Shown: positions 2,067-48,732 of the stretch, piece after piece
Layout: the number at the start of each line of letters is the position of its first letter
Position numbering within the stretch: position 1 is the stretch's first letter
Assembly (NCBI RefSeq): GCF_013403245.1
Contig: NZ_JACBNQ010000016.1
Location: 1-64,000 of the forward strand
From: Sedimentibacter hydroxybenzoicus DSM 7310
GTDB taxonomy: Bacteria; Bacillota; Clostridia; Tissierellales; Sedimentibacteraceae
Reading direction: 5' to 3'
Length of the DNA stretch: 64,000 bases
Position numbers and translations under genes: made by a program
The notes under the pieces: generated by a model
Told to the model about the DNA's origin: nothing
Databases searched by the model: none
The model's input: only the letters and a program-made list of their open reading frames with translations

Positions 2067-3341
2067 TCATAGCAATGGTAGTATTATATTTACTTTAAAT
2101 TCTTTATCATCGTAATTTATTTTCATATGACCATTATTTCTGTTCACAGCTTCTTCAACATTTCTTAACCCTATTCCATGGTTTTTTTCATCCTCTTTTG
2201 AGGTAAGCAATGTACCGTTTTTTTCTTTAACCTCTCCATTATACGTATTAGCAACGGTTATTAAAATACTTCCTTTACAATAGCTTATTTTAACAGATAG
2301 GAAATTTTCACCGCTGCATTTTTTCAATGCAGTAATGGCATTGTCCGTGAGATTGCCGAGTATAATTGTCATATCGTATGATGATATACTTAGCTTTTTT
2401 GGTACGGATACATCTACTTGCAATTCAACATCCATATTTGTTACTGCTTGCAGCTTATAGTTTAGTATACTGTCCACTATTACGTTTTCCGAATTTGAAT
2501 ACAATGTCCTTCCATCTACAGATGAAATAATTTTGTCCACGTACTCGTCAAATTTGGTGTATCCCTCAGCGGAATTAAGATTTTTCAATACAATCATATG
2601 ATTCTTTATGTCGTGCCTAACTGTTTGCAAAGAGTCAAGTGACTGCTGCATTATATCCAATTGCATTGCGTATGCATTGTTTTGCTGTTCCAAAAGAATT
2701 TTTTCTGTCTTAGCTGAGAATGAAAGATACAAGGTGTCATATAAAAATAATATGGCAAAATTTATACCTAAGATCGAAATAATAAGTATTATCATTTCAA
2801 TGTTGTTAAAACTGCCATGGGTAAAGAAGCTTATAAACTGATATAGAGATGCTACGGAAACAAAAATTGTACTGAACCAATAAAAATTAGGTACCGGAAT
2901 ATCATTCTTTATATTTTTTAGGTTAGTAAGAATTGTAACAAGCAGCATGGATAAAATACGAATCAAAACCAATCCCAAAGAGGAATCATATTCACTATAA
3001 CCAAAGACAGGTATTGCAAAATATCCTGTAAGAGCAACAACCAGTGTCTCTATAAGCATTAATGCTATAAAAGACAAGACGGAAAAAATGATTTTCTTCG
3101 CTAAAGAGCTTCTGTAATTAAGTGACAAGCAAAAGAAAAGCGTGATATTTATTATTAGTAACACAATGGGTTTTCTGACTGTAAAAAATATAAGCAAATT
3201 AATGAAGTAATATGCGATGTAGGAGAAAGCCTCTGCTTTTATGCTTGTACGCCGCTCATCAAAAAACAGCTTAAGCATCTTATAAATAATGTAGGTTCCA
3301 AAAATACTTGATATTACATAAGTAATTTCATATGAGCTCAT
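2067..3341 (-). CDS. agrC: AgrC-like sensor histidine kinase
   Basis: The 424-residue protein has a multi-pass membrane sensor region (about residues 1-205, six or seven helices), a coiled linker, then a GHKL kinase domain. The phospho-acceptor is His243 in TVRHDIKNHM. The ATP-binding lid shows the N box NLTDNAITAL and the glycine motif NHGIGLRNVEEAV near residue 390. This arrangement is typical of class-10 kinases that sense AgrD-derived peptides. The gene overlaps the upstream regulator by four bases (ATGA), and agrD/agrB follow on the same strand. The likely ligand is the cyclic peptide from the adjacent agrD. Confidence 0.9.
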   Translation of the reverse strand: MSSYEITYVISSIFGTYIIYKMLKLFFDERRTSIKAEAFSYIAYYFINLLIFFTVRKPIVLLIINITLFFCLSLNYRSSLAKKIIFSVLSFIALMLIETLVVALTGYFAIPVFGYSEYDSSLGLVLIRILSMLLVTILTNLKNIKNDIPVPNFYWFSTIFVSVASLYQFISFFTHGSFNNIEMIILIISILGINFAILFLYDTLYLSFSAKTEKILLEQQNNAYAMQLDIMQQSLDSLQTVRHDIKNHMIVLKNLNSAEGYTKFDEYVDKIISSVDGRTLYSNSENVIVDSILNYKLQAVTNMDVELQVDVSVPKKLSISSYDMTIILGNLTDNAITALKKCSGENFLSVKISYCKGSILITVANTYNGEVKEKNGTLLTSKEDEKNHGIGLRNVEEAVNRNNGHMKINYDDKEFKVNIILPLL

Positions 3342-28415: not shown

Positions 28416-28934
28416 TTATAAATCCTCTTCATCATTCCAGAGAACTATATTATTTTTCTCCAAAGATTTTTTAATATCTATAATTCTTTGATTCGTTGAA
28501 CCTATGAACCGTAAATTGTTTTTGAATAAGCTTTTATCAAATTTACCGTCAACCAATATATCACATAATTTCAGCAGCTCAAGATATTCTTTATTTTGAA
28601 GTATCTCTTCGTAGGTACGTCCGCTATATATCCATATATTCTTACGGGTATTTGATTTGATTTTTTCCGCAAGCAAAGCAAGGGTCTTTGCCTGCATCAT
28701 GGGCTCACCGCCTATAAATGTGATGTTTGTAAAGCTCCCTGTAATTTTTTCAAAAACCTCATCTATCTCCATGGCATGGCCTGAACTAATATCCCAGAGA
28801 TTTTTATTGTGACATCCTTCACAGCGTATGTCACATCCGCTTAAATATAGAGATGTTCTGAAACCTGTTCCGTCTACTATGGTATTTTCTACAATATTGG
28901 CTACATAGAGCAATTTATCATTCAGTTGCTTCAA
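28416..28934 (-). CDS. nrdG: Anaerobic ribonucleotide reductase activating enzyme
   Basis: This 172-residue radical-SAM enzyme generates the glycyl radical of NrdD. The 4Fe-4S motif is CDIRCEGC (Cys34, Cys38, Cys41) and the SAM-binding segment FIGGEPM follows near residue 95. Length fits NrdG. It overlaps nrdD by four bases (ATGA), so the two are translationally coupled. Confidence 0.97.
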   Translation of the reverse strand: MKQLNDKLLYVANIVENTIVDGTGFRTSLYLSGCDIRCEGCHNKNLWDISSGHAMEIDEVFEKITGSFTNITFIGGEPMMQAKTLALLAEKIKSNTRKNIWIYSGRTYEEILQNKEYLELLKLCDILVDGKFDKSLFKNNLRFIGSTNQRIIDIKKSLEKNNIVLWNDEEDL

Positions 28935-30220
28935 TTATGCTTCACCCTGTCTTTTAATTCTGCCTTCTTTGCATTATTCCAGCTGTCAACTCCTCCAACC
29001 AGGTACCCTGTTATTCTCTGAATCGTATCAATATCCTTGCTGCCGCATTCAGGGCACATCTCCAGATTGTCCGAAGCATCTTCATATCCGCAGCTTTTAC
29101 ATCTGTTTCTGGTATGGTTTACTGAGCCGTATCCCATATTGTACTTATCCATCAGGTCAACGGTCTGCATAACGGCTGACGGGTTATGGGTGGCATCACC
29201 GTCAAGCTCCACATAAAATATATGTCCCCCTTTTTCAAATTCATGATAGGGTGCTTCAATTTTAGCTTTATGCTCTATGGAGCATTTATACCATACAGGC
29301 ACGTGAGAGCTGTTTGTATAATATTTCTTATCAGTAATATGAGGAATGCTGCCAAACTGCTTTCTGTCTTTTTTAATGAATCTGCCGCTTAAGCCCTCTG
29401 CAGGGGTTGAAAGCAAGCTGTAATTCAAGTCGTAATAATCCGACTTTTCCTTTATTCTTCTGTTCATATATTCAACAATTTCAATTCCAAGCTCCTGAGC
29501 TTTTTCATCTTCGCCGTGATGCTTTCCGGTTAATGCTATTAATGCTTCAGCCAAACCGATAAATCCTATTCCCAATGTTCCGTGCTTCAATATACTTTTA
29601 ACGCTGTCATCGGGACTGAGCTTTTCACTTTCAAGCCACATTCCCGACATAAGCATGGGAAATTGCTTCTTTATTGCAGTGCATTGAAATACGTATCTGT
29701 CATAGAGCTGCTCCGCAGCTGCGTCTATACATTTCTGAAGTCTTTTGAAAAACTCTCTTTTCTTAGTATCAAGACCTTCCATATCCCTGCATTCCAATGC
29801 AAGTTTAACTATATTGATTGTTGTAAATGATAGATTTCCCCTTCCGATTGAGGTTTTTTCGCCGTGTCTGTTTTCAAAAACTCTTGTCCTGCAGCCCATG
29901 GTGGCAACCTCTTTTTCAAACCTGCGGGGATCATTTGCATCCCAATCTTCATGTGCATTGTACGTAGCATCTAAATTTAAATAGTTGGGGAAAAACCTTC
30001 TTGCCGTTACCTTGCAGGAAAACTTATATAAATCATAATTCCTGTCCTCAGGCAGATAGTTTGCACCTCTTTTTTTCTTCCATATTTGTATTGGAAAAAT
30101 AGGAGTTTCTCCGTTCCCCACACCTTTGTATGTTGAAATCAACAGCTCTCTTATTATGCATCTGCCTTCGGCACTGGTGTCTGTGCCGTAATTTATGGAG
30201 CTGAAAACAACTTGATTACC
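28931..30220 (-). CDS. nrdD: Class III ribonucleotide reductase, exon 2 (C-terminal part)
   Basis: This segment encodes 429 residues that continue NrdD exactly where exon 1 stops: exon 1 ends HSRG and exon 2 starts GNQVVFSSINYGTDTS, which together form the family sequence. It holds the zinc ribbon (CKSCGYEDASDNLEMCPECG as two CxxC pairs) and the glycyl-radical region RITGYLVGGVDSWNNAK. Read alone it would start at ATG 30223, but that G is the last base of the intervening sequence. With exon 1 the protein is 733 residues, normal for the class. Key residues are intact, so this is not decay. Confidence 0.92.
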   Translation of the reverse strand, partial: GNQVVFSSINYGTDTSAEGRCIIRELLISTYKGVGNGETPIFPIQIWKKKRGANYLPEDRNYDLYKFSCKVTARRFFPNYLNLDATYNAHEDWDANDPRRFEKEVATMGCRTRVFENRHGEKTSIGRGNLSFTTINIVKLALECRDMEGLDTKKREFFKRLQKCIDAAAEQLYDRYVFQCTAIKKQFPMLMSGMWLESEKLSPDDSVKSILKHGTLGIGFIGLAEALIALTGKHHGEDEKAQELGIEIVEYMNRRIKEKSDYYDLNYSLLSTPAEGLSGRFIKKDRKQFGSIPHITDKKYYTNSSHVPVWYKCSIEHKAKIEAPYHEFEKGGHIFYVELDGDATHNPSAVMQTVDLMDKYNMGYGSVNHTRNRCKSCGYEDASDNLEMCPECGSKDIDTIQRITGYLVGGVDSWNNAKKAELKDRVKHN

Positions 30221-30654
30221 CATTGTTATTACCTCAAGGCTTTTTATCCTTGACTCTAGAGGTTTCCCTCATTTGACAGCTAGTTGTGTTACTGTCTTAT
30301 CGGCTAGTCTATTCCAGCCTAGTTTAGCATATATTTTCATCCTCGACATTACGTTAGGCTATTGACTTTTAAGTCATATAGGTTAGTTCTATCAACTAAC
30401 ATGGGGAACACTCTTGGAAGGATTATATTCTAATTACTCATTAGTTTCACCTTCTATGCGTTACGGTGCGAAAGCTTTTTAAAGCTTTAAAATATTTATA
30501 AATATTTTAGTATCAAATACTCGTTACCTCGGTGTTGGCATACACTTTATCAAATATTGATTTCTACACGTGGGGTGTGTCAAGTGTTTAGCTTCCTCCG
30601 ATTTTGCTCCCTTTTTCATCAGGCATTTCTGCATGAAGGAGGCAGTTATTGTTT
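30221..30654 (-). ncRNA. Intervening sequence in nrdD, probable group I intron
   Basis: Exact removal of these 434 bases restores an unbroken nrdD frame. The 5' exon ends in T and the element ends in G, as group I introns do. An internal guide GCCUC in ACTGCCTCC pairs with exon GAGGU through a final U-G pair (P1), and the adjacent ACU can pair with exon-2 GGU (P10). Downstream elements fit the core: AUCGG/CCGAU as P3, AGACUA as part of P7 with GAGUC as its partner, then a P9 stem CAAGG/CCTTG just before the 3' end. P4-P6 are not resolved. No endonuclease gene is inside. It lacks group II ends (GUGYG) and domain V. Confidence 0.78.
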
Positions 30655-31566
30655 ACCTCTACTATGTATCGTATTCATATTGTGAATAAATGCTTCCATT
30701 GCTTGATGCACTCGCTTCACGGTATTGTTTACGGACTGCTGCATATATCTTGAATTTCCTTCAAGTCCTTCTAAAGGTTTTTCGATATAATCCTCTATTT
30801 CGATATCACAAAGTTCGCTTAAATCAATATTCAAAAGTTCTTCTATCTTACGGATTTCTTCCTTGTATGTAAGTTTTACGTAAGGAGCCAGATAAAAATC
30901 AAAAGCAGGTATTGACTGACCGCCATGCATTTCATTCTGTATCTGCTCCATGGAAATACATCCTATTATGGAAGCCGTTTCTATACGCTTTGCAGGTCTG
31001 CTGGAGCCGTGTCCCGCTCTGAACCCTTTTGTGAGAATATAATCCAATGGATGCTGCAAGCACGTAAGTGATTTTGTAGGATAATAATCCTTATCATGCA
31101 CATGTATGTAGTTATTCTCCACATAATTTTTTGACTGCTCGGACAGAAGGCAATCATCAACAAAGGGCTTTGAGGATTCGCTGGCAAATTTCATCATCAT
31201 GCCTGCGGGAGTATCAGCGTTCATATTTGCATTTTCTCTCGTAACGTCGTTGGGAACTGCATTGACTATATCCATGTATATATCGTATTGCCTTCTCCCT
31301 CTTGCAACATTTCTTTTATTTCTGTAAATTATATATTCCTTGGCTACATCCTTTCGCTGACTTGCCATCAGCTTCTTTTCAACAAGATCCTGTATGTCCT
31401 CCACAGAAATGGTTTCATTCGTTTCATCGGTTATTTCCTGTGCTATTTGTTTTGCAATTCCTATATCCTGTCCCATTGCTGTATGGCTCATTGCCTTGAG
31501 AATTGCATCTGATATTTTACTTTTATCAAATCCTATAAGTCTTCCGTCTCTCTTTATAACATTCAT
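30655..31566 (-). CDS. nrdD: Class III ribonucleotide reductase, exon 1 (N-terminal part)
   Basis: These 304 residues start with an ATP-cone (MNVIKRDGRLIGFDKSKI; SVEDIQDLVEKKLM) that senses ATP/dATP, then the first half of the reductase barrel (YYPTKSLTCLQHPLDYIL, GGQSIPAFDFYLAPYV). Unspliced, the frame stops three codons into the intervening sequence (KQ stop). AAGGAGG lies upstream of ATG 31566. The gene starts 18 bases after cbiO on the same strand, so it may share the cobalt/cobalamin transcript. Confidence 0.93.
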
Positions 31567-31584
31567 TCGATGTCCTCCTTAGAA

Positions 31585-32376
31585 TCAATCACTAAATAAT
31601 TCACTTTCATTTTTGTACAGCTCTTTTCCCAAATATTTGTGAACCTTAACCAAAAATGGTTCTTCCAATCCGGCTTTATCTAAAATTTCTTTGTTAAGAA
31701 ATATTGTTTCCTTTTTACCTTCCGACAGCAATTGTCCCTTGTTAAGTACATATATATAGTCACATGCCTCGTAAATAAAATTCATGTCGTGACTTGAAAC
31801 AACAATAGACTTTTCTTGCTTTTCGCTTAAATTTTCTAATATACTCTTCACATTTTCCTGTGACCTGTAATCCAATCCTGCCGTCGGTTCATCAAAAAAA
31901 ATAATGTTATGATTCATTGCCGCCACACCTGCAATTGATACGTTCTTTTTCTGACCGTAGCTCAAGAAGTGTACCGGTTTATTTTGCAATTCTGTTATGC
32001 CTGTTTTCTCCATAGCAAGCTTAACTCTTTTCTGCACCTCATCTTCATTAAATTTAAGATTTCTAAGCGCAAAAGCCACATCATCAAAAACACTTGAAAA
32101 AAATATTTGCTTATCCGGGTCCTGAAATACTATGCCTGTATTTTTTCTCAACTCCGACAATGTTCGCTTATCATACTTCAACTCTTTTTCATTAAAAAGT
32201 ACCCTTCCCTTCGTGGGCTTAAAGAGACCTAAAAATATCATGAACAATGTTGATTTTCCTGAACCGTTTGATCCTACTATGCCTATTTTTGCACCTTTTT
32301 TTAAGTCTATGTTAACGTCTTTTAGTGCCACAGTACCATCTTCATAAATGTATGTTACATCTTCCATTCTTAACAT
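31585..32376 (-). CDS. cbiO: Cobalt ECF transporter ATPase CbiO
   Basis: The 263-residue ATPase powers the CbiMNQO cobalt importer. It has Walker A GSNGSGKST, Q-loop VFQDPDKQIFF typical of ECF ATPases, a signature variant LSYGQKKNVSIAG, Walker B IIFFDEPTAGLD and the switch SSHDMNFI. Only one ATPase gene is present, so it acts as a homodimer. It is the last gene of the cobalt block, before nrdD. Confidence 0.95.
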   Translation of the reverse strand: MLRMEDVTYIYEDGTVALKDVNIDLKKGAKIGIVGSNGSGKSTLFMIFLGLFKPTKGRVLFNEKELKYDKRTLSELRKNTGIVFQDPDKQIFFSSVFDDVAFALRNLKFNEDEVQKRVKLAMEKTGITELQNKPVHFLSYGQKKNVSIAGVAAMNHNIIFFDEPTAGLDYRSQENVKSILENLSEKQEKSIVVSSHDMNFIYEACDYIYVLNKGQLLSEGKKETIFLNKEILDKAGLEEPFLVKVHKYLGKELYKNESELFSD

Positions 32377-32392
32377 AATGCACCTGCTTTTA

Positions 32393-33094
32393 TCAGTCTA
32401 CGTAAAAATTACCGTCGAAATGCTTTAGTTCCAGTATTGATTCCATATCCTTAAATCTCATCATTATTCTGACAAACAGTATTTTAATCAATACTGCCAA
32501 TGAATTCATTGAATTTTTATATCCGTCATATCCGAACTTCATTTTTTGAGCAGTATGAATTAAAATTGCTTCTTCAAAAAATATTGCTATAAACCTGTAT
32601 GTCAATACATATAGCTCAATAAATACTGGCGGCAGCTTTGCTTTTTTCATAACCTTTATCTGCTGGCTGCATGGCGTTGTGAGAATGAGAAAATACATGC
32701 CCGCTATACCACTTAATGCTCTCAGCCCCAATGTAAGTCCGTTTTTGACAGCTCCTTCCGCCAAACCGATGTAAAAATTTAAAACGTGAAATTGTTTGAA
32801 ATATATAAATCCTTCAGTATATGCTTTATCTGAAAAACCAAAAGTAAATACAATAGTAAAAATGCTTATTAATAAATATACCGCGGGAGCTGCAATCATC
32901 TTGGCATATGATTGTTTTGGAATACCTGCTCCGAATATTGTTGTCAAGACAATTCCTGCAATCATTAGACATAAAAAATATATGTTTGAGCTGATGATTG
33001 ATAACAATATCAAAAGAAATGAAATTGTTACCTTAAAATAAGGATTTGAATTGCAGAATTTATTTGTGTACGCAAATCTATCTATAATAAGCAT
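32393..33094 (-). CDS. cbiQ: Cobalt ECF transporter transmembrane subunit CbiQ
   Basis: The 233-residue membrane protein begins like CbiQ (MLIIDRFAYTNKFCNSNPYFK) and carries helices to about residue 130. It then has the coupling region with the two short alanine/arginine-type motifs replaced here by RALSGIAGMYFL and VRIMMRFKDMESILE. It joins CbiM to the ATPase dimer. It lies between cbiN and cbiO with short gaps. Confidence 0.93.
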   Translation of the reverse strand: MLIIDRFAYTNKFCNSNPYFKVTISFLLILLSIISSNIYFLCLMIAGIVLTTIFGAGIPKQSYAKMIAAPAVYLLISIFTIVFTFGFSDKAYTEGFIYFKQFHVLNFYIGLAEGAVKNGLTLGLRALSGIAGMYFLILTTPCSQQIKVMKKAKLPPVFIELYVLTYRFIAIFFEEAILIHTAQKMKFGYDGYKNSMNSLAVLIKILFVRIMMRFKDMESILELKHFDGNFYVD

Positions 33095-33108
33095 TTTATA
33101 CCCTCTTT

Positions 33109-33393
33109 TTATTGTTTAGCTAATCTTTTGCCTCTCACAAGACCGTAGAAATATCCTATAACTCCTGCTCCTATTGCTGCCTGCAATGAAAACAATAAGC
33201 TTTCAATTTCACCGCTTGCCGGCTCTATTAACGGACTGAACCATGGTTCATAATCAGGATTTATCTCTGTTATAACTTCCTCCGCCTGTCCGTCGGCTCC
33301 GCCAAATTCAGCATCCTTTAAAATTAACAGCGGCACAGTCAGCATTACAATTAATACTAAAATCAATAAAATATTTTTAGTTGATCCTTTCAA
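33109..33393 (-). CDS. cbiN: Cobalt ECF transporter auxiliary subunit CbiN
   Basis: The 94-residue protein has two membrane helices (residues 7-25 and 65-85) around an extracytoplasmic loop with [20 protein letters not shown], the CbiN signature. CbiN assists CbiM in cobalt loading. The start is a TTG at 33393 with GGAGGG upstream, overlapping cbiM by 17 bases. Confidence 0.93.
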
Positions 33394-34102
33394 GCTGGTA
33401 CCCTCCCTCTTTTTGATAATTTACAATTAATTCGAAAACTATTACCGATAAAATTCCTTCAGCTATGGCAAGCGGAATCTGCGTAACTGCAAATATGCTT
33501 AAGAATTTAGTCAAAGAACCCATTACTCCGCTCACTGCATCCGGATGAGCCAATGCGAGCTGCACGGATGTTACCATGTATGTGACCAAATCTCCCAGAG
33601 CTGCCGCTAAAAATACGGCAAGCTTTTTATTGGTACTCTTTAACAGCTTGTATGTAAAATACGCTGCAAAAGGTCCTACAATTGCCATTGAAAATACATT
33701 TGCTCCCAATGTGCTTATGCCGCCGTGAGCAAGCAAAAGCGCCTGAAACAGCAAGACTATAAGTCCTGATACAGCCATAGGCAAAGGGCCGAACAATATT
33801 GCGCCGAGTCCGGTGCCCGTTGGGTGTGACGTGCTGCCTGTTACTGAAGGCATTTTAAGGGCTGATAATATAAATACAAATGCAGTTACCAAAGCAAATA
33901 ATAATTTTTGATTTGGATTTTTGTTAAATGTTTTGGATATTGTTCTTATGCCCATAACAACAAAAGGCAGACTCACAACTGTCCAGAATATTGCCCAACC
34001 TACAGGCAAAAACCCTTCCATAATGTGCATTCCAAAAATATAATTTGGAGATAATAGCATTACCGACAGCAATGCCATACATAAAATAAATCTTTTTTTC
34101 AT
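33377..34102 (-). CDS. cbiM: Cobalt-specific S component CbiM
   Basis: The 241-residue membrane protein binds cobalt at the N-terminus of its mature form. A leader (residues 1-24) precedes [16 protein letters not shown], in which Met and His ligate the metal in studied homologues. Six more helices follow, with [20 protein letters not shown] as the second family block. With CbiN, CbiQ and CbiO it supplies cobalt for the chelatase CbiK encoded just upstream. Confidence 0.95.
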
Positions 34103-34129
34103 TTCTTCCTCCTTTATTTATACTGTAAT

Positions 34130-34906
34130 TTATACAGTTAAAATCTCATTTAATCTGCCAACAAATAAATTGACAGCATTCTCATTTTCACCCAGACCCG
34201 TGAAAAACATTTCTACATTTATTCCATTGGCAGCAATTTTAGATTTTATCGATTCTACGTCATCTGAACCGATATCATTTAATGCATGATCCCCTGAAAC
34301 TATCAAAAGCGGATAAAGATAAATTTTCTTGTATTTCTCTGCTTTTAATTTATCCATAATATCGTCAATGTACGGATTCCCTTCGATATTTGCTATATGA
34401 ATATTGCTTGTATCCATTCTCAGCAGCTTTTCAATCTGCTCATAATATTTGTGAGCTTCATGTCCCGTACCGTGTCCAACCAGTATTACTGCCTCATCAT
34501 CATTCAGATCAGTCTTTATATATGATTTTATAACGTTTATTTCATCTTCTCCCATATGGTCATCTAAAAATGTTCTTGCCGTTTTTATCTCTTCAAAGCT
34601 GTCTTTATATTCGTTAACCGCTCTTAAAACCTTCTCATATTCAAATCCCGGTACTACGTGAGTTACAGATACGTAGACATGGGTGTAATTTTCTTCCTTC
34701 AGCTTCTGTAAACAGCTCTTCATATTATGGATATCCAGATTTTCTTCCCGTTTCATTTTTCTTCTGATAATTTCTGACGTGAATACTCTGAAGCAGTCAA
34801 TGTTTTTATATTTACCCTTGACCGCATTTTCAATGGTCTCAATATATCTTTCTCTTGAATCTTTTATTGAGCATCCAAAGCTTGCAACAACTATTGCTTT
34901 TTTCAT
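34130..34906 (-). CDS. cbiK: Sirohydrochlorin cobaltochelatase CbiK
   Basis: This 258-residue enzyme inserts cobalt into sirohydrochlorin, the first committed step of the anaerobic cobalamin route. It begins AIVVASFGCSIKDSRE and has the catalytic/metal His segments VSVTHVVPGFEYEKV and LVGHGTGHEAHKYY and the C-terminal IVSGDHALNDIGSDD. There is no signal peptide, so it is the cytoplasmic form. It neighbours the cobalt importer genes, so uptake and insertion are coexpressed. Confidence 0.95.
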   Translation of the reverse strand: MKKAIVVASFGCSIKDSRERYIETIENAVKGKYKNIDCFRVFTSEIIRRKMKREENLDIHNMKSCLQKLKEENYTHVYVSVTHVVPGFEYEKVLRAVNEYKDSFEEIKTARTFLDDHMGEDEINVIKSYIKTDLNDDEAVILVGHGTGHEAHKYYEQIEKLLRMDTSNIHIANIEGNPYIDDIMDKLKAEKYKKIYLYPLLIVSGDHALNDIGSDDVESIKSKIAANGINVEMFFTGLGENENAVNLFVGRLNEILTV

Positions 34907-48157: not shown

Positions 48158-48229
48158 AATAACACTAATTATTTTATTACAATATAATTATTCTAGATAA
48201 TCCCTCCGAAAATCTATAAACACACACAT

Positions 48230-48389
48230 CCTGGCAGGTCTCCTGACTTTCGGTTCATCTAACATTCACCTTCCCATGCATAGCACAGTGGCATCGAACA
48301 TTATCACCTTTCACAGTAGCGGGGGCTGTAACAGCTTTTACTGTTTTCCCTTTTAAAACAATTGTTACCAAAATATCGATATTAAATTT
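48230..48389 (-). promoter_or_regulatory. Cobalamin riboswitch of the cbiD operon
   Basis: On the - strand the B12 box AGTCAGGAGACCTGCCAGG (48231-48249) closes the element. Upstream lie GGGAAAACAG, CAGCCCCCGCTACTGTGA, GGTGATAATG and GATGCCACTGTGC with GGGAAGGTGAATG, the conserved AdoCbl-riboswitch core. A terminator downstream implies that cobalamin shuts off the operon. Confidence 0.95.
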
Positions 48390-48524: not shown

Positions 48525-48549
48525 TTACTTAACTAAACATCTTTTGATA

Positions 48550-48732
48550 TTGGTGCGCATAAAATGCGATAATAGGGAATTAGGTTAAAGTCCTAAACAG
48601 TCCTGCTGCCGTAATGAGAGAGCGATTTTTAAGGCAATGCCAACCACTGGGAAACCGGGAAGGTTAAAAATCTGCAATGACCTCTAAGTCGGAAAACCTG
48701 CCAGTATTATTTGCGTAAATACCGCAAATGCT
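48550..48732 (+). promoter_or_regulatory. Cobalamin riboswitch of the btuFCD operon
   Basis: The conserved elements appear in order: GGGAATTAGGTTAAAGTCC, CAGTCCTGCTGCCGTAATGA, GCAATGCCAACCACTGG, ACCGGGAAGG and the B12-box region AAGTCGGAAAACCTGCCAG (48686-48704). A further stem TTTGCG/CGCAAA follows before the terminator. Confidence 0.95.

Follow-up and report, generated by a model that had tools for sequence, protein, structure and literature searches.

The nrdD gene on the minus strand of the window (the whole 64,000-nt stretch of DNA analyzed here) is interrupted by 434 nt (30654–30221), which very probably constitute a self-splicing group IA intron that lacks a homing endonuclease and belongs to a mostly viral family with a re-paired P7 helix. 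The 5' nrdD frame (31566..30646) continues for two codons beyond the exon (HSRGKQ) and then reaches a stop, and the 3' frame runs from 30223 to 28931. Removal of 30654..30221 joins 304 and 429 codons in frame to give 733 codons, with HSRG linked to GNQV, as a sequence-only reading of this DNA had claimed. The two halves match positions 4–326 and 327–744 of the NCBIfam NrdD profile NF005497 and therefore adjoin at 326/327, with no part of NrdD lost or doubled. When the joined protein was searched in 61 genomes (its own included), 59 gave some match, many of them distant only, and the site was read in the ten related bacterial genomes with a close nrdD match spanning it (L118–L125, L128, and L150). 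HSRGGNQV was unbroken in all ten. The 434-nt element was thus inserted into a conserved site that is empty in these relatives, and the same two separate proteins in a homologue, which the sequence-only reading had named as evidence against itself, were seen in none of these relatives. Against the nearest relative, pN for the exons was 0.036 and 0.045 versus pS of 0.505 and 0.494, and both exons look constrained; they are also open without a frameshift, and the adjoining nrdG gene is intact.

Anatomy of the element and its genomic setting

Together with 20 bases on each side, the element folds 3.95 standard deviations better than 100 dinucleotide shuffles. A P3–P7 pseudoknot, P7.1, the U–G pair of P1, and a terminal G occur in group I order (Table 1). 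Subgroup IA is distinguished by P7.1 (and P7.2) between P7 and P3, and the helix order and topology, with P7.1 present, therefore place the element in group I, IA type. The 5' exon ends in U, the element ends in G30221, and exon GAGGU pairs with guide GCCUC through a U–G pair, all as originally described; the same exon and guide sequences recur in a phage nrdD intron (L149). The adjacent P10 that had been thought possible can be drawn as ACU with GGU, but spans only 3 bp; P4 has only 4 bp, and P3 has 6–7 bp. Of the helices that the sequence-only reading had placed in group I order, P3 and P7 stood up to tests across the family and P9 is taken from the fold, and P4–P6, which it had left unassigned, can now be given as UCGG/CCGA (P4) and GGU/ACC (P6). 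The extra hairpins in P6, in P8, and after P9 have no counterpart in L149, and the latter two are also missing from the consensus of the family model described below.

No frame for a homing endonuclease was found in the 434 nt, in agreement with the earlier reading, and neither was a frame of the size of an insertion-sequence transposase. An IStron was rejected based upon the absence of a transposase frame in the 434 nt and of an Rfam match, and a group II intron because Rfam gave no such match for the element. An Rfam match to LOOT (16.8 bits, below the 46.4 threshold, and on the wrong strand) was taken as chance.

In the splicing pathway that we propose, guide GCCUC would pair with the exon end GAGGU, free guanosine bound in P7 would attack after the splice-site U, and the exon end thus released would in turn attack behind G30221, the last base of the element; with HSRG and GNQV joined, NrdD would again have its 733 residues. 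Stops inside introns may aid intron folding by stalling the ribosome, according to PMC3984707, and the in-frame stop two codons into this intron would fit such a role.

Table 1. Features of the interrupted nrdD gene and of the element within it (window coordinates)
Feature	Position	Strand	Basis
nrdD 5' exon, 304 codons, ends ...AGA GGU	30655..31566	-	frames, NF005497 match, joined codon count
nrdD 3' exon, 429 codons + stop	28931..30220	-	frames, NF005497 match, joined codon count
Very probable group I (IA-type) intron, 434 nt, no endonuclease frame	30221..30654	-	R1 model match 30464-30225
P1, exon side: GAGGU, with the 5' splice site after its final U	30655..30659	-
Internal guide GCCUC, first G pairs with splice-site U	30639..30643	-
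P10 candidate, 3 bp: ACU with exon GGU	30646-30644	-
P2 hairpin	30615..30637	-
P3 5' strand GGGAGC, partner GUUCCC; A30605-U30410 can add one pair	30606..30611	-
P4 5' strand UCGG; 3' strand CCGA 30532-30529	30598..30601	-
P6 5' strand GGU; 3' strand ACC 30467-30465	30526..30528	-
P6 extension, three hairpins between P6 strands	30521-30471	-
P7 5' strand GCAUA (264-268); bulged C30460 (263), A30461 (262)	30455..30459	-
P7.1 GAAGG/CCUUC enclosing P7.2 CUAAU/AUUAG	30417..30454	-
P3 3' strand GUUCCC, second half of P3-P7 pseudoknot	30404..30409	-
P8 CAU...CCU/AGGAUG, broken by two extra hairpins 30400-30359	30338..30403	-
P7 3' strand UAUGC (307-311), then U30326 (312)	30327..30331	-
P9 hairpin from fold; model aligns same stretch with larger insertion	30302..30319	-
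Extra hairpin GACAG/CUGUC after P9	30275..30296	-
P9.1-type hairpin GAGGGAAACCUC, part of search motif	30259..30270	-
P9.2-type hairpin UCAAGG/CCUUGA	30234..30253	-
Terminal G of intron (omega G)	30221	-	family 3' ends

The host genome (3.8 Mb in 71 contigs) encodes a class II reductase elsewhere, an adenosylcobalamin-dependent enzyme (TIGR02505, contig C27). Among 24 same-genus genomes, some of them incomplete assemblies, seven had a near full-length close match to nrdD, two a partial match spanning the site, two the gene in pieces with the middle missing (G008:C98 and G013:C1), and 13 a distant match or none; nrdD seems dispensable in the genus. Within window positions 28416–34906, the gene starts 18 bases past the stop of an ATPase gene that we take to be part of a cobalt/cobalamin uptake cluster. 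This neighbor and the cofactor of the second reductase possibly point to a B12-linked switch between the two enzymes. Two cobalamin riboswitches lie back to back and divergent at window positions 48216–48387 (-) and 48534–48719 (+).

A family of introns with a re-paired P7

The Rfam Intron_gpI model (RF00028), which the sequence-only reading had proposed as a check, returned no match in the 64-kb window at gathering score, none in a 641-base stretch holding the element, even with permissive filters and a cutoff of E≤10, and none on the whole host genome. This negative result would have told against group I, and relatives were therefore sought by sequence. Permissive blastn detected shared blocks in the gyrA genes of phages phiR1-37, AR9, and BpSp, another adjoining a split capsid gene, and one in the tape-measure region of a C. 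difficile plasmid. A motif of 21 bases from the 3' hairpin region of the element was present in 82 stretches of viral sequence and in 21 from species genomes; over all loci, it gave 116 matches in 85 distinct contexts, including that of the window. Translation revealed a clearly interrupted bacterial dnaE gene in five of the 21 genome loci, and more showed a short FLNPER-type exon. The other interrupted host genes, named from motifs, are presumably gyrA and terminase genes. No other nrdD insertion was seen among the 21 motif-bearing genome stretches, a collection outside which the host genome may lie. Four loci (L105, L110, L113, and L115) each had at least two RF00028 matches in or near dnaE, a bacterial polymerase gene with introns in tandem, and group II intron matches were also present on L104, L107, and L112.

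From 36 of these relatives (alignment A1), we built a covariance model, R1, that spans P7 to the 3' end; the window was excluded on purpose, and L036, L056, and L109 (the last with a misplaced 3' end) of the 40 candidate stretches were also omitted. R1 scored the window at 114.9 bits (E 1.8e-19, a rough calibration), its sole match at E≤1 in the 64 kb, and the element was also its sole match on the host genome. The group I class proposed by the sequence-only reading, which a covariance search without a group I core would have undermined, is thereby upheld by the family model, though RF00028 fails, by the covarying core, and by canonical-P7 relatives that RF00028 itself calls. In A1, 96.4% of cells were paired, 25 of 33 pairs were changed on both sides (four of five in P7.1), and the covariation score reached 0.625; shuffled alignments scored 0.191 ± 0.011, and slid controls no higher than 0.127. 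P3 was evaluated in 39 of the 85 contexts, namely those with a full set of anchors (the other 46 lack one); it had at least 4 bp in 31 and at least 6 bp in 28, versus 30% and 7.5%, respectively, when 3' strands were dealt to other members. Of 29 distinct cores that have P3, 27 contain both P4 and P6, compared to 5.2% of shuffled cores; P6 occurs as GGU/ACC, GUG/CAC, CUG/CAG, GCU/AGU, GAU/AUU, and GGA/UCC, among other versions.

A scan of viral sequences with a P7/P7.1 pattern produced at least 120 stretches, and R1 gave at least 80 matches in 70 loci when run over L203 and 73 new loci among the matches listed. These 70 loci (alignment A3) comprise 67 distinct sequences, none of them in the A2 alignment used below for P7. 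All five P7 pairs were intact in 76 of 80 A3 rows among the matches listed, the other four lacking an intact P7; because the pattern fixes the 5' strand of P7, only the 3' strand is an independent test. Covariation in A3 was 0.486 versus 0.121. L203 had been a candidate for a fourth nrdD 5' junction and was dropped, as its translation is not nrdD. With filters that lose weak matches, R1 members appeared in five of 100 near relatives and five of 391 class-sampled genomes (the host genome counted in both), and the family is therefore sparse in these bacteria; scans of viral contigs gave far more members. In Mammaliicoccus phage phi116 (L013), a minus-strand "hypothetical protein" at 3001–3132 (-), probably spurious, overlies a family core (R1 3020–3167 +), and a ROOL RNA lies at 172–761 of L040, a viral contig with two R1 matches.

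The P7 helix of the window is GCAUA/UAUGC rather than the usual GACUA/UAGUC. In the Tetrahymena numbering of PMC10020454, transferred through an alignment made here, the window keeps G264–C311 (GC in 36 of 36 A1 rows) and replaces A265–U310 by C265–G310 (C–G in 33 of 36). Both A–U and C–G occur at 265–310 in the same intron family, and we do not deem A265–U310 obligatory for that reason. P7 was paired in all 36 A1 rows and in 73 of 77 rows of A2 (76 of them distinct, L161 being a duplicate of L099). In two of the remaining four rows (L020 and L113), long insertions have thrown off the alignment, and P7 is paired when viewed outside it; the others are L107 (2534) and L010 (4192). Among the 73 intact A2 helices, ten are canonical GACUA/UAGUC and 63 are GCAUA/UAUGC or GCGUA/UACGC, variants with C–G for A265–U310 and A–U or G–C for C266–G309. 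Position 261 is A in every row (36 of 36 and 77 of 77), and the 262–312 pair and bulged base 263 are A–U with C in 56, G–C with A in 16, and A–U with A in one of the 73 rows. A further type, GAGUA/UACUC, is present in three A3 rows.

Cryo-EM has revealed four stacked triples at the guanosine site, including A261–A265–U310 and A306–C266–G309 (PMC10020454). The window P7 is a putative guanosine site, and judged by its sequence it would depart from the known one in layers beside the bound guanosine. Based upon these patterns, we lean, if slightly, toward a broader view: that the family is a large and mostly unannotated group IA clade, mainly in phage and in a few bacterial housekeeping genes, in which compensatory change rebuilt P7 (C265–G310, A–U or G–C at 266–309, A261 kept, and 262–312/263 switching as a unit), a modified triple sandwich binds guanosine, and standard models miss the members largely by treating P7 as letters. 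The guanosine site is a central and well-studied part of group I introns, and since both the 265–310 and 266–309 pairs change with pairing kept in 63 of 73 intact-P7 rows, its tolerance can be tested with natural sequences.

Detection by RF00028 and competing explanations

In the RF00028 consensus, the P7 strands appear as AGACUA and AUAUAGUCu, both marked unpaired. Thirteen of 14 loci in one RF00028 test carry UAGUC, and RF00028 matched six of these 13 beside the family motif (L105, L109, L110, L112, L113, and L115), with scores of 63.8–85 bits. At L104, the match lay ~270 bases from the motif and may be the same intron; at L031, L036, L085, L093, L100, and L107, there was no match at the family intron. 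Seven of the 13 canonical members, some with long insertions, were thus missed. Among variant-P7 loci, RF00028 matched the family intron in zero of six at E≤1 (the sole match being a separate intron in L012), in zero of 20 at gathering score, and in none of a further 18 loci, 15 with an R1 match, at gathering score. Across T4, SPO1, Twort, AR9, phiR1-37, and two viral records, the model gave 39 matches, of which 23 were taken as loci; UAGUC was correctly placed by pattern in 22 of these and was seen by eye in the SPO1 locus. At E≤0.001, it matched five places in phiR1-37 and 18 in AR9, and the gyrA introns that R1 finds in these two phages were not among them.

We take the negative RF00028 result as a limit of the model and not as evidence against group I, because the model also misses relatives with the same P7 type. 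The variant P7 is likely to be one cause, as RF00028 treats P7 as unpaired letters and found canonical members in part and variant members never; it is not the sole cause, as seven of 13 canonical members were missed too. This is a blind spot of a model that matched 18 places in AR9 and missed two gyrA introns of the variant type, and genes like the window nrdD are therefore likely to be annotated as fragments.

Apart from the one chance match on the other strand, Rfam is silent about the element, as might be expected of an intervening RNA outside group I, perhaps of a new ribozyme class. That reading is largely refuted, however, and we give it almost no credence: canonical-P7 relatives with the same 3' motif are recognized by RF00028 with the scores given above, and the pseudoknot, P7.1, U–G pair, and terminal G of the window follow group I order. 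Splicing might also be dispensed with altogether if the gene were split into two polypeptides, the second starting at an AUG at the end of the element (30223–30221) that shares the frame of the 3' exon and is preceded by GAGG 8 bases upstream; a phage nrdD intron too ends in an in-frame AUG. We consider this arrangement very unlikely, since it would cut NrdD inside HSRGGNQV, which is unbroken in ten of ten relatives, the element belongs to a structured RNA family, and the GAGG overlaps the P9.2-type stem.

An intron that arrived recently or has decayed and splices inefficiently, so that nrdD is a pseudogene whose role falls to the class II enzyme, is a less remote prospect but still improbable. 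The adenosylcobalamin-dependent reductase of the host (TIGR02505) would permit it; 15 of 24 same-genus genomes, some incompletely assembled, have no close nrdD match that is near full-length or spans the site; the intron bears extra hairpins; and constraint on the exons, measured against relatives, averages over the time before insertion. By contrast, the core helices are intact with standard pairs, both exons are open with no frameshift, and nrdG is intact.

Phage counterparts and known systems

An identical nrdD intron occurs in three viral contigs (IMG/VR 2925368107_000001, designated L149, 2558309135_000008, and 2558309125_000009). It shares with the window the insertion point HSRG|GNQV, exon GAGGU and guide CUGCCUC, and the intron family (R1 183 bits), and it has no frame in about 294 nt; it differs in its P7 (GCGUA/UACGC with a bulged A), in lacking the extra hairpins, and in residing in a phage gene and not a chromosomal one. 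In phiCDIF1296T, kin of the L149 phage, nrdD was matched in one unbroken piece, and the DNA past the insertion site is 92.6% identical to that of the L149 phage. By identity, the nearest intron to that of the window is in L033, a 244.7-kb viral contig (82% over 153 columns). In a tree that omits six rows (L107 twice, L010 4192, L113, L020, and L161), neither pairing was rejected (p-AU 0.368 for the window with the L149 phage nrdD intron, and 0.158). Co-conversion of the flanking exon is a mark that homing leaves; a test for it against the nearest intronless relative was elevated at ±3 codons, where 28 of 728 windows were as high, and not at ±5 codons (120 of 724) or wider. The identical site and guide in a phage nrdD gene suggest phage transfer of the intron, a question that the tree does not decide. 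In Thomasclavelia phage TR-TP1, an HNH endonuclease gene divides nrdD in two (L153 1001–4124), with no R1 member there.

Introns in phage nrdD are already known as such from Jug phages: according to PMC12363816, nrdD is fragmented in 95 of 104 genomes, and metatranscriptome reads support splicing for 37 of the 76 group I introns predicted there, with nrdD as one of the examples. Available portions of other papers describe a group I database for which the Rfam model served as the seed (PMC11835236) and a Staphylococcus jumbo phage in which Rfam detected no introns (PMC10638138), and mention introns of AR9 and jumbo phages with no description of their structure in those portions (PMC5312081 and PMC7598289). 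In the largely open-access literature, within the text available to us, we found neither a clade with a re-paired P7 nor a group I intron in bacterial nrdD.

Close structural parallels come from gyrA in Bacillus phage AR9 and in Yersinia phage phiR1-37, whose introns have the core of the window, a GCAUA/UAUGC P7, the bulged C, and the 3' hairpins, but interrupt another gene at another site; AR9 gyrA is annotated as a join of three pieces, and the gyrA pieces of phiR1-37 have a frame, g328, between them. RF00028 shares the P3-to-P8 architecture of the window and differs in its consensus P7. The group IA introns of T4 (nrdD and two further RF00028 matches) and of the SPO1 DNA polymerase gene resemble the window in A262–U312, in bulged C263, and in a U directly after the 3' strand of P7 (UAGUC in their case), and, like most of the family, they lie in phage genes; unlike the window, they have the canonical A265–U310, and those of T4 nrdD and SPO1 encode endonucleases. 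The T4 nrdD intron, invoked by the sequence-only reading as a precedent, is indeed an annotated group IA intron but occupies another site, as NTLFSSNGQT (corresponding to NTIHSRGGNQ) is unbroken in the second T4 exon. Finally, the introns of bacterial flagellin, recA, nrdE, and nrdF genes share with that of the window a chromosomal protein gene, an in-frame stop, and a suspected phage link; nrdD is not among the bacterial intron genes named in the part of PMC3984707 from which this comparison is drawn.
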